Source: a virus. Taken from it: a stretch of 64,000 bases of DNA. The notes beneath the pieces were generated by a model. That model was given only the letters and a program-made list of their open reading frames with translations, did not search any database and had not been told where the DNA came from. Below are positions 50,954 to 58,191 of this stretch, piece after piece. The translations under genes were made by a program, and so were the position numbers. The stretch's first letter is position 1, and every line of letters begins with the position of its first letter. The stretch lies in IMG/VR virus record IMGVR_UViG_3300007735_000791, positions 23,102 to 87,101 of that record; one strand, written 5' to 3'.

Positions 50954-51661
50954 ATGTCTGATTTATTTACTAATTTTCAACAAATTTTAAGAGACGTTAA
51001 AAACAAATACGACATAAACATGTCCCACCCAAACGGGTCAATTATTTATGAAAAACCGTATCCAGCCATAAACAAGTCTGTCTGGATGGAAATCAATCAT
51101 ACAAAAACCCCTTCAACTACTTCTTTTAATTTTCAGTTTGATATTCCGCTTGAAAATGGGCATCGTGTGTCTGTTTTAAAAAATAATAGGATTCCTGGGC
51201 CTGTTCAATCAGTCATACATGTACCTACTAAATACATGGTTAGACAACCAAATGGTACAAATACAACAAGTTATGTTCACAGGTCAATGAGAGGTGGCGT
51301 TGACCTTGATTACATCAATGTTCCTAAACACCTTGAAGAATATACAGAAAACATTAAGCCTTATCACGAACTTAAAAATAACGACATGTTTCACGATTAT
51401 GTTAAATCTGTGTCTCGTCTTCCAAGATTTGGCACAGCCCAACAACACGTTAGGGATAAAAATCCAACTTTTGAAAGTCAACGAGCAATGACTGATGATG
51501 AATTAAATGAACATTTTCAAAACACTCATGGAAACTTAAGGCAAGAAGAATATCCGCATAACATACATTTATACGTTAATGACGTCAATTCAGACAGAAT
51601 TCTTCAGTACGATTACGACATTAAAACTGAAAAACTAACAACTGATGAAGAATGGGACTAG
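50954..51661 (+). CDS. Accessory family A, member 1 (unknown)
   Basis: 235-aa protein, first of three related proteins (also 53831 and 54615). Shared motifs: a helix then D-x-x-x-P-x-G at about residues 22-30 (NMSHPNGSIIYEKPYPAINKS), FDIPLENGHRV near 65-75, DDELNEHFQNTHG near 180, and a C-terminal YDYDIKTEKL. The fold looks beta-rich in the middle. It is likely leaderless: TATACT ends 7 bases before ATG. Function unknown. Confidence 0.6.
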   Translation: MSDLFTNFQQILRDVKNKYDINMSHPNGSIIYEKPYPAINKSVWMEINHTKTPSTTSFNFQFDIPLENGHRVSVLKNNRIPGPVQSVIHVPTKYMVRQPNGTNTTSYVHRSMRGGVDLDYINVPKHLEEYTENIKPYHELKNNDMFHDYVKSVSRLPRFGTAQQHVRDKNPTFESQRAMTDDELNEHFQNTHGNLRQEEYPHNIHLYVNDVNSDRILQYDYDIKTEKLTTDEEWD

Positions 51662-51674
51662 CACAGTAATAGTA

Positions 51675-51680
51675 TATACT
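51675..51680 (+). promoter_or_regulatory. -10 box of a leaderless gene
   Basis: TATACT with 6 bases to ATG 51687. Confidence 0.55.
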
Positions 51681-51686
51681 TAATAA

Positions 51687-52064
51687 ATGTCTCTAAATCC
51701 CGAACAATTTGGTGATGCCATGAAATATAGAGACACAGAATTAGTTCCAATCTCAATTTTAGACACAATGCAAGGCAATAAATTGCGTTATGACGTATCT
51801 GAACTGTCTGAAGACCTTAAAAAACGTGGATTTAACATTCCAGGCATCATTGATTACTACCAACACGACAGAAGAGCCGTTTTAGGTGAGGGAAATCACC
51901 GTTTGGAAGCCGCAAAACGGGCAGGATTTACCCATATGCCAGTAACTGTGTACCGTATTGAGGGTTCTGGGAAGAAAAGAGGCGTTCCTGTCAAAGGGTT
52001 TGAACCAGACAGGCATAATTACGTTCCAGGGAGGCTCCGTCCTTCAGATATTATGGATATATAA
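51687..52064 (+). CDS. ParB-like protein 1
   Basis: 125-aa protein with a ParB/sulfiredoxin-type fold: VPISILDTMQGNKLRYDVSELSEDLKKRGFNIPGII (the x-I-x-x-L-x-x-x-I-x-x-x-G layout, residues 18-52), then AVLGEGNHRLEAAKRAGFTHMPVTVYRI (the G-E-x-N-H-R motif, residues about 60-88). Proteins with this fold may be nucleases, kinases or CTP-binding. The motif GEGNHR matches the usual G-x-H/R nucleotide-binding site. Leaderless promoter; next gene overlaps its stop by one base. Confidence 0.72.
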   Translation: MSLNPEQFGDAMKYRDTELVPISILDTMQGNKLRYDVSELSEDLKKRGFNIPGIIDYYQHDRRAVLGEGNHRLEAAKRAGFTHMPVTVYRIEGSGKKRGVPVKGFEPDRHNYVPGRLRPSDIMDI

Positions 52065-52555
52065 TGGCCCGTTCAAAGCGTGAAAAGATAATTGTCTATC
52101 ACGGAACGTGGAGTAGTGCTCCTCCGCATGAAAAGATTATGCCAAAGTCGGTATTTCATGCTGGAACGTTAAACGCAGCACATACCCGAATTGGTGACAC
52201 CATGCCTAGATACAGGAATAACCCAACTGGTGAGACTATACACGTTTATGAAATACAGCCACATGCTCCTATGGGCATGATGACATACACTGACCCTGAT
52301 AGAAATAAAGTATCTGCTAAGTATTTTGATGATTCTGTTTATAAAACTGCTGATAACTACGCATCTGACCAATTAGATGTGTCTAAAGGAGACAACACAA
52401 AGCGTATTAGAAAATACGTAAACTTAATTGAAGACCCAGGAAATATGTCTTATGTAATTCCCAAACATTTTGTAGAGTCTGGTTATGTTCGTTATTTGGG
52501 ACCACAGTTTGTAGATTGGAAACAAGTTACCCATAGTGCGGTTAAAGATGCTTAA
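52064..52555 (+). CDS. ADP-ribosyltransferase-like protein (YHGT type)
   Basis: 163-aa protein: IIVYHGTWSS at residues 9-18, a FHAGTLNAAHTRIGD stretch near 29-43 and IHVYEIQPHAPM near 63, then NLIEDPGNMSYVIPKHFV near 126 and RYLGPQFVDW at the end. It is homologous to the protein at 52595 along the whole length, including the EDPGS/NxSY motif. Resembles Arr-like or parasitic ART folds. Substrate unknown. The gene is translationally coupled to the ParB-like one before it. Confidence 0.55.
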   Translation: MARSKREKIIVYHGTWSSAPPHEKIMPKSVFHAGTLNAAHTRIGDTMPRYRNNPTGETIHVYEIQPHAPMGMMTYTDPDRNKVSAKYFDDSVYKTADNYASDQLDVSKGDNTKRIRKYVNLIEDPGNMSYVIPKHFVESGYVRYLGPQFVDWKQVTHSAVKDA

Positions 52556-52594
52556 TTTTTTAAAATCTTTTTCGTCGTTGAGCCGTGCACAATA

Positions 52595-56726: not shown

Positions 56727-56733
56727 ATTATCC

Positions 56734-56756
56734 ATTATCTCATATTGTTGTATCCT
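56734..56756. promoter_or_regulatory. Divergent pair of leaderless promoters
   Basis: Minus-strand GATAAT (56734-56739) and plus-strand TATCCT (56751-56756), serving ATG 56726 and ATG 56763 with 7 and 6 bases of spacing. Confidence 0.5.
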
Positions 56757-56762
56757 TGTAGT

Positions 56763-57404
56763 ATGTCTGCTTCTAACCATGTAAACAAATACTTATTTGG
56801 TGAATTGTTTGAGCAAATGCATGGAATAACCATAGATGACGCCTTGTCGGGCAATAAAGTTAAAATGGTTGGAATACACAACGAACGAGACCCAGGTTCT
56901 CAATGGTTTACACCAGAAGAACACGATGAGGTAATGGGAAAACCCTGGTCAGAAATACACTCAAAACTTACCGCGCCTACTGACCCAGAAGCAACAGTTC
57001 GTAAATATCAACTAGTTAACCCAGTTCAACATTTTATTGCAGGTGGAAGTCTTTATGAAAACGCCGCGCAATTACGAGACCTGACTCCTTTTTTACGCAA
57101 TGCTTCTCGTGCCAATGAAGTTCCTTTGTATCGCGGCGCTAATCGCCCTCCAGCAGTTGATTCTGGTAGAGATAGACCTCTTGGGTTTACTCCAGACAGG
57201 TATGCTGCTGTTAGTTATACAAAAGACAGGTGGGATGGTCGTGGTCGTGGACAAATCTTTAAAGCAAGCGCTGGAACAGTTAAAGGTGTGCCTTTGCGAG
57301 AAGTAGGCGGTAATCAAATGTATGTCAATAAAAAAACAAAAAGAAGAGACTACGAATGGTTAGTGTTACCAGAGACTATCCCTCAAGAATGGCCTGATAA
57401 ATAA
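56763..57404 (+). CDS. ADP-ribosyltransferase (exoenzyme-type R-S-E)
   Basis: 213-aa protein, leaderless. It shows a classical R-S-E ART order: VPLYRGANRPP with the Arg near residue 120, LGFTPDRYAAVSY with the Ser/Thr strand near 142, and YEWLVLP with the catalytic Glu near 198. The N-terminal 100 residues may be a targeting or capping domain. It overlaps the next gene by one base. Unlike the YHGT-type neighbours it belongs to the exoenzyme-type clade. Confidence 0.62.
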   Translation: MSASNHVNKYLFGELFEQMHGITIDDALSGNKVKMVGIHNERDPGSQWFTPEEHDEVMGKPWSEIHSKLTAPTDPEATVRKYQLVNPVQHFIAGGSLYENAAQLRDLTPFLRNASRANEVPLYRGANRPPAVDSGRDRPLGFTPDRYAAVSYTKDRWDGRGRGQIFKASAGTVKGVPLREVGGNQMYVNKKTKRRDYEWLVLPETIPQEWPDK

Positions 57405-57817
57405 TGGCTGCTCATGAACATTTAAATGAAGAACTTTTTCATGGGTCATCAGACAGGTTTGGTATCCTTAAAAAAGGACAAATAATAATTCCTGGAAATA
57501 GTGTTCGCGGATTAATCAATCAACATCATCAAGATTCTGAATACCCAGAAGCCTTAGACTATGCACACGCAACATTTAGCCGAGAACGTGCAGAAATATA
57601 TGCTGATTGGGCAGCAAACGGTTATTTAAATGAAGTAGGGAAGCCAGTGGGACATGAAAATATTGAAAAACATGGAATCGCTAAACCAATTGTTTATTCA
57701 GTAAAACCTGCAGCGGACCAAGAAGATGACCCGCAAGATTGGCAGTCTGTTCGTTCTAAACAGGGATTTGAAGTAATTGGTCGCCGTCGTATGAGAAAGT
57801 TAAAGTTTTTAAAATAA
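57404..57817 (+). CDS. ADP-ribosyltransferase-like (Arr type) with MAAHEHLN leader
   Basis: 137-aa protein: MAAHEHLNEELFHGSSDRFG at the start (FHGS for the YHGT motif), AHATFSRERAEIYADWAANGY near 50 and IVYSVKPAADQED near 95, the Arr-like order of H-G-T, A-x-x-Y-A and V-x-P. One-base overlaps on both sides. Part of a three-gene string with the R-S-E enzyme and a ParB-like protein. Confidence 0.6.
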   Translation: MAAHEHLNEELFHGSSDRFGILKKGQIIIPGNSVRGLINQHHQDSEYPEALDYAHATFSRERAEIYADWAANGYLNEVGKPVGHENIEKHGIAKPIVYSVKPAADQEDDPQDWQSVRSKQGFEVIGRRRMRKLKFLK

Positions 57818-58191
57818 TGGCTGCTCACGAACATTTAAATAAAAATCAACTACGCATGTTTATGCGACCACATGAAATATATAACCTTGTTGTTGACTCC
57901 ATTGACAGAGCAGATGGAGAAACTTTAGAAGATACATGGGTAAACAAAAAGTCTGAATTATCTCACGGGTACCGCTCTTTAGCAGACAGCGTTTTAAAAG
58001 AAGGAGTTAAACGCCCTATAACAATAATGTTAAATCATGGTCATTACAAAGATTTTACAATGGGCCAAGGTCACCATCGTGTAAAATCAGCCGAAGTTGC
58101 AGAATTTAAAACAGGAAAAGAATACTATGTACCAATTGTATATGATTGGGATTGGGACGAAACAGATAACAAACGATATGACCCTATGTGA
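57817..58191 (+). CDS. ParB-like protein 3 with MAAHEHLN leader
   Basis: 124-aa protein. Starts MAAHEHLNKNQLRMFM, a leader shared with the ART-like gene just before. Then LSHGYRSLADSVLKEGVKRPITIML (residues about 48-72) and FTMGQGHHRVKSAEVAEFKTGKEYYVPIVYDWD with the G-x-G-x-H-H-R motif. ParB/Srx fold as in the proteins at 51.7 and 53.1 kb. Confidence 0.68.
   Translation: MAAHEHLNKNQLRMFMRPHEIYNLVVDSIDRADGETLEDTWVNKKSELSHGYRSLADSVLKEGVKRPITIMLNHGHYKDFTMGQGHHRVKSAEVAEFKTGKEYYVPIVYDWDWDETDNKRYDPM

Follow-up and report, generated by a model that had tools for sequence, protein, structure and literature searches.

A conserved N-terminal tag on small effector proteins of BRock-related phages and its possible role in virion packaging

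The first 10 residues of the phage T4 protein IPIII are enough for packaging into the head, and these 10 N-terminal residues can direct unrelated proteins into the head and then into the cell (PMC9026906). Virion packaging has also been inferred for polyvalent proteins such as P1 DdrB (Iyer et al. 2017, PMC5512222), Arr-like ADP-ribosyltransferases (ARTs) are known in actinophages, and RES enzymes cleave NAD+ by phosphorolysis (both PMC9503650). Here we describe a short N-terminal peptide, the tag, carried by many products of a cassette of small genes in an uncultured virus. The window analysed, 64,000 nucleotides in length, covers positions 23,102–87,101 of the 87,101-base record IMGVR_UViG_3300007735_000791. 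ARTs had been described from phages, including Arr-like ones from actinophages, as had polyvalent effectors and capsid targeting sequences; the tag is what is new here, and limited literature searches found no description of it.

The tag shares with the T4 capsid targeting sequence (of IPI–III and Alt) the design of a roughly 10-residue N-terminal peptide common to divergent small proteins, but it is not known to resemble the T4 signal in sequence, and the head module is a different one. With polyvalent proteins the tagged set shares its repertoire of ART, ParB-like and GNAT domains, yet it consists of separate single-domain proteins of ~100–220 residues under a common tag instead of a multidomain chain. 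A related described phage is the Streptomyces phage BRock (Borockvirus), with which the core genes are syntenic, including terminase, portal (51% identity), major capsid protein (MCP, 57%), sheath and tube, replication genes and a WhiB-like gene; terminase, portal and MCP span 45–57%, and the terminase is ~46% identical to those of BRock and of a second Streptomyces phage, LuckySocke. BRock, however, lacks both the tag and the cassette of ART, ParB or GNAT genes. This relationship and synteny point to an actinomycete as the most likely host, and the cassette belongs to a variable effector island of a contractile phage related to BRock, most likely a phage of Actinomycetota.

A conserved peptide at the start of unrelated genes

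The tag follows a 12-residue consensus, MAAx[E/D][H/N][L/I][N/S]xxQ[F/L], found at the start of many genes of the window and of related phages. In the window (genes are named by their first position) it reads MPAHEHLN in 52595, MAAHEHLN in 57404 and 57817, and MSASNHVN in 56763, with only the core LNxxQ(F/H) in 51687, 58204 and 62393. Related contigs were reached via a conserved neighbour gene, the 57404 protein and the N-terminal peptide, and families were built by iterated profile searches across them. Across these contigs 64 ATG starts fit the pattern M[APSTG][ASRTK]x[ED]x[LIV][NSHYT], against 2.9 expected from shuffled N-termini, and chance resemblance of N-termini is rejected; 52 non-identical open reading frames (ORFs) remain once one spurious match and duplicates are dropped. 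The tag heads at least ten apparently unrelated families (Arr-like, RES-like, R-E ARTs, ParB-like, GNAT and others), and with the tag cut off the tagged ORFs of the related contigs fall into 21 clusters at E<1e-4, some of them distant members of one family. Groups that can be named are ParB-like proteins, GNATs (Pfam 1.9e-6; the tagged ones occur in relatives), the Arr, YHGT and 56763 families discussed below, and a second ART family with an R...GxHW...ExE signature (alignment A6). The third codon positions of the tag vary (entropy up to 1.9 bits) with the residues fixed, so that selection acts on the peptide, and a conserved DNA element is rejected for the same variation at synonymous sites. 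In the three large contigs examined for this the motif is confined to protein starts. Its L/I-N/S-x-x-Q-F/L pattern resembles a helix N-cap with a hydrophobic staple. A tree of the YHGT family did not discriminate single from repeated gain of the tag. One further tagged family, FAM1 (L039:7026–7421 and relatives), has a CCYxYSxHF or CxxGxC-like motif and no known domain, and is a candidate new effector; HicA-like and zincin labels assigned by eye found no support in Pfam.

A blind scan of all viral contigs, its sole query being the DNA pattern of tag positions 1–11, returned 52 matches in 43 stretches. Small ORFs are opened by 44 of the 52, position 12 is F, L, H or M in 41 though it lies outside the query, and 21 of the 43 loci have at least two tagged ORFs; most matches fall on small genes like those described above, frequently arranged in tandem. 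The identical pattern found 60 scattered matches in 257 Gb of bacterial and archaeal genomes, with 10 at small ORF starts, four with a fitting position 12 and none in a locus with two; its occurrence in bacterial genomes is due to chance alone, and a cellular origin of the tag is rejected. Some tagged proteins recovered in this way, never picked for ART similarity, exceed the Pfam cut-off for Arr-ms (L104, 9.9e-13; L102, 4.9e-8), and the domain begins at residue 12, directly behind the tag. Nearly all tag-found contigs with head genes have a BRock-type MCP or portal, matching at 58–65% and 48–75%, respectively, outside the near clade and higher within it. Neither protein was matched in ten of the tag-found contigs tested, some of them short fragments; four of the ten exceed 40 kb (L071, L072, L091, L093), and in L091 the tag match itself looks like a chance match. 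The tag is a real, strictly N-terminal peptide that is conserved, sits on unrelated domains and accompanies one head type.

Function of the tag

The anatomy of the tag matches that of the T4 signal: it is short, N-terminal and borne by divergent small proteins, here in a variable island. We read the tag as an N-terminal sorting signal for virion packaging, with a probability of roughly 55–60%. On this reading the island encodes small stand-alone enzymes of host takeover (ARTs of several families, ParB-like nucleotide-binding or nuclease domains and, in relatives, GNATs), which other actinophages combine in a single polyvalent protein. The tag would be recognised by some head or scaffold component, and the enzymes would be incorporated late, packaged and delivered by injection along with the DNA. 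Inside the host, the ARTs would use up NAD+ or modify their targets, and nucleic acids and proteins would be acted on by the ParB and GNAT proteins as soon as infection begins; late expression, packaging, injection and host targets are all inferred. On balance we lean towards a split polyvalent arsenal of separate enzymes, each with a short signal working like the T4 capsid targeting sequence. The odds are about even that the tag is, more broadly, a novel peptide for virion targeting that has no relation to the T4 signal and serves as a general label for swappable injected enzymes of BRock-type phages, a modular and divided equivalent of polyvalent polyproteins.

A fused counterpart was reached from a tagged GNAT query. 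Gp97 of mycobacteriophage Tonenili (751 residues, L107:11544–13799), encoded upstream of tRNAs and the portal gene, has the order ParB-GNAT-ART-ART-GNAT in one chain. Family profiles place ParB at residues 47–135 (1.3e-7) and GNAT at 164–253 (1.3e-21) and 650–716 (3.7e-7), residues 469–586 belong to the R...GxHW...ExE family (hhalign 3.5e-9), and ~265–440 appears by eye to be a further R-E ART; judged by this domain content, gp97 is identified here as a polyvalent protein. The relatives Dandelion gp89 and Cane17 gp71 keep approximately the first 13 residues (MCYGCQQVLADLQ) with the modules shuffled. The Cluster C mycobacteriophages (L107, L108, L109) thus have a polyprotein with a constant 13-residue N-terminus followed by shuffled ParB, GNAT and ART modules. 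The tetrapeptide RTA[GS] appears three times in the gp97 linkers, a number reached in 0 of 20,000 shuffles, as well as in the portal and other virion-region proteins, and is a possible candidate for a protease cleavage site.

Several observations weigh against virion packaging. The tag is known from genes alone, with no cultured phage bearing it, and neither a prohead protease nor a site of cleavage was identified. The island adjoins tail-fibre genes (in contigs G001 and G004) and does not lie within the head operon, and some cassette members (52064, 53831, 54615) are untagged. Moreover, BRock has a similar head and neither tag nor enzymes, so the head alone does not require the tag, and the co-occurrence of tag and head could be plain shared ancestry.

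A possible, though unlikely, alternative is that the tag sorts or docks proteins within the infected cell, at a host or phage protein, a membrane or the replication site. A short N-terminal tag on many enzymes would serve this equally, and -10 elements right before the ATG fit any time of expression; against it stand the one head type common to tag-found contigs with head genes and the location of the fused equivalents beside the portal region. It is very unlikely that the cassette holds ordinary early-expressed ART toxins like T4 ModA and ModB with no common delivery, since this view, consistent as it is with the supported ART identity, leaves a single peptide on ParB, GNAT and ART proteins unexplained. 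Recombination or duplication that reused one start region, leaving shared 5' ends and a functionless peptide, would fit the shuffling of modules among relatives and the common tandems of tagged genes, but residues are kept where synonymous positions are randomised, and the tag is retained in deeply diverged families, making this highly doubtful. That the 5' sequence is a translation signal of leaderless mRNAs, as CTATA[AC]T 13–14 bases before several cassette ATGs might suggest, is barely credible given the varying codons and the many tagged genes that lack a promoter of this kind, their starts being coupled through TAATG.

Two proposals of the first-pass annotation need adjustment. The parallel it drew with T4 Alt, ModA and ModB holds for role only, no Alt-type Pfam or PHROG match being found among the cassette proteins. 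Its ART arsenal is real as far as the ARTs go but too narrow, because ParB-like proteins and, in relatives, GNATs also belong to the tagged set; the tag is a more informative feature than the ART set. That annotation had overlooked both the shared N-terminal peptide and the three ParB-like genes beside the ARTs.

The ADP-ribosyltransferases

The ARTs were first noticed by their motifs, which are all in place: FHGS...IVYSVKP in 57404, YHGT...YVYRVEP in 30241, YHGT...HVYEIQP in 52064, FHAS...HVYDVQVP in 52595 and, in 56763, which has an ATG start, LYRG...DYEWLVLP. Iterated profile families show them to be more than chance. Single-sequence Pfam, PHROG and PDB searches with the cassette ARTs returned nothing. 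The assignment to ARTs stands for the Arr-like family through Pfam and PDB profiles and for the YHGT family through AlphaFold and Foldseek, while 56763 is unproven; the mixture of ART clades that had been proposed is correct. We regard two of the families as demonstrated ARTs, and the ParB and GNAT identities as likewise demonstrated.

The Arr-like family has 17 members, including 57404 and 30241, with H13 and G14 invariant. A 13-sequence profile matched Mycobacterium smegmatis Arr (PDB 2hw2) at 9.1e-5 and ARR-2 at 0.04 in the PDB, and five of the 13 members matched Pfam Arr-ms (PF12120; best 2.2e-7). The 57404 protein alone had no match in Pfam, so its membership in Arr rests on the family. 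This protein and its relatives share with Arr the HGT motif, EDDP and length, and H13 and D109 (the second D of EDDP) of 57404 align with H19 and D84 of Arr, whose catalytic residues are H19, Y49 and D84. The 57404 protein differs from Arr in its tag and in a His at the place of Tyr49 (YAHAT), where relatives have Tyr or Phe. On the strength of these profiles, 57404 and 30241 are assigned as Arr-like ARTs. Profile comparison with the YHGT family found no relation beyond the N-terminal segment.

The YHGT family, also of 17 members and including 52064 and 52595, has the invariant residues H13, P21, H22, G34, T35, H60, Y62, D77, Y118, N120, E123, G126 and S129 and no credible match by sequence in Pfam or the PDB. 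An AlphaFold model of 52064 built from 16 sequences reached a predicted local distance difference test (pLDDT) score of 78.8 and supports an ART fold. The top six Foldseek matches in the PDB are RES and ParT proteins, the best being RES toxin 9r35 (E 6.7e-3, probability 1.00); MbcT ranks tenth, exotoxin A and tankyrase match weakly, and viral structure matches include ART-PolyVal. Template-modelling scores of 0.4–0.54 and a root-mean-square deviation of 7.4 Å give moderate support, and the ART fold is accepted because ART enzymes recur consistently, the scores themselves being moderate. With moderate confidence, then, 52064 and 52595 represent a new ART family with a predicted fold like that of the RES, ParT and MbcT toxins of the ART superfamily. 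From these they differ in their invariants (PPH...FHxGT...HxYE...YxNxxEDPGS) and ~10% identity, in a motif I residue that is His and not Arg in 16 of 16 sequences, and in having no antitoxin identified; nor does the RES Pfam model match the family. Given the phosphorolysis of NAD+ by RES enzymes, an NADase role is as possible for YHGT ARTs as protein modification.

The 56763 protein is a putative R-S-E-type ART. Its family counts three members at 45–46% identity, a scan of viral sequences for further relatives returning the same two contigs only. R124 and E198 are invariant, with D or E two residues ahead of E198, in these three sequences only. The AlphaFold model from three sequences gave no fold support (pLDDT 36), PDB profiles gave no match, and comparison with the R...GxHW...ExE profile showed no relation beyond the N-terminal segment.

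Cassette neighbours, the phage and wider meaning

Three ParB-like genes adjoin ARTs (Table 1): 51687, 53085 and 57817. Since the ParB domain begins near residue 45 of the 53085 ORF, the real start of this gene may be the ATG at 53211 (MVYVKSLGHINPQQF, a tag core). The paralogue trio (50954, 53831, 54615) ends in ...YDIKTEQL, is amplified in G003 and present in L037, and has no Pfam match; its members may serve the cassette as partners or immunity proteins. A single-cluster ferredoxin gene (55361–55606; Pfam Fer4_15, 2e-16) lies within the cassette, and a near-identical one among the tagged genes of G005. CTATA[AC]T lies 13–14 bases before an ATG at window positions 50940 and 53818, at 73786 and 74166 in G001 and at 42561 and 42884 in G004, the spacing of a leaderless promoter; other cassette genes begin by TAATG overlap with the preceding gene.

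Table 1. Cassette and related features, in window positions
Feature	Position	Strand	Evidence
Arr-like ART outside cassette, no tag	30241..30609	+	family profile
-10-like element CTATACT	50940..50953	+	14 bases before ATG of 50954
Paralogous family member 1	50954..51661	+	paralogues at 53831, 54615, in G003 and L037
ParB-like protein, short tag core MSLNPEQF	51687..52064	+	PHROG 723 8e-7; in-house ParB profile 2e-21
YHGT-family ART, untagged	52064..52555	+	AlphaFold pLDDT 78.8; Foldseek RES, ParT, MbcT, exotoxin A, PARP ARTs
YHGT-family ART, tag MPAHEHLN	52595..53098	+	profile 3.7e-50; alignment A4
ParB-like protein	53085..53615	+	Pfam ParB_N 5.8e-4 (below cut-off); profile residues 45–173, 7.9e-28
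-10-like element CTATAATTAATAA	53818..53830	+	immediately before ATG of 53831 (contig position 76919)
Paralogous family member 2, untagged	53831..54610	+	family profile
Paralogous family member 3, untagged	54615..55343	+	family profile
Putative R-S-E-type ART, tag variant MSASNHVN	56763..57404	+	alignment A1: conserved YR (R124), (D/E)xE (E198)
Arr-like ART, tag MAAHEHLN	57404..57817	+	H13 and EDDP (D109) at places of Arr H19 and D84
ParB-like protein, tag MAAHEHLNKNQL	57817..58191	+	PHROG/in-house profile; 84% identical copy in G003
Small protein, tag core MADLNAEQF	58204..58359	+	sequence
Conserved small protein, tag core SLNWEQH; relatives MGTEEHLNWDQH	62393..62761	+	profile search

Elsewhere in the window are genes for baseplate, tape-measure, DnaB-like helicase, primase, polymerase and UvsX-like proteins; those for portal and capsid lie a short way upstream of the window. 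A DNA search of phage records with the cassette region gave no match, nor did searches with several of its proteins or their relatives. A queuine tRNA-ribosyltransferase-like gene (32178–33662; PHROG 887, 1.7e-30) hints at 7-deazaguanine modification of DNA or tRNA. Immediately upstream of the cassette, 49317–50070 is G+C-rich (54% versus ~40%) and encodes a protein of imperfect DHTRT/DHTHD repeats, with a counterpart at the equivalent place in G003. In contig G000, a proteasome-subunit-like protein (L003:11357–11986; Pfam Proteasome, 3.8e-6), adjoining the portal gene and 66% conserved in relatives, could be a head-maturation protease.

The analysis adds a new ART family and connects tagged genes that stand apart with polyvalent polyproteins, the two being alternative packings of one arsenal. 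If the tag is a packaging signal, a 12-residue motif would suffice to read from sequence which proteins uncultured actinophages inject, even those of families that have no known domain, and which phage proteins enter with the DNA would become a genome-wide prediction that mass spectrometry could check.

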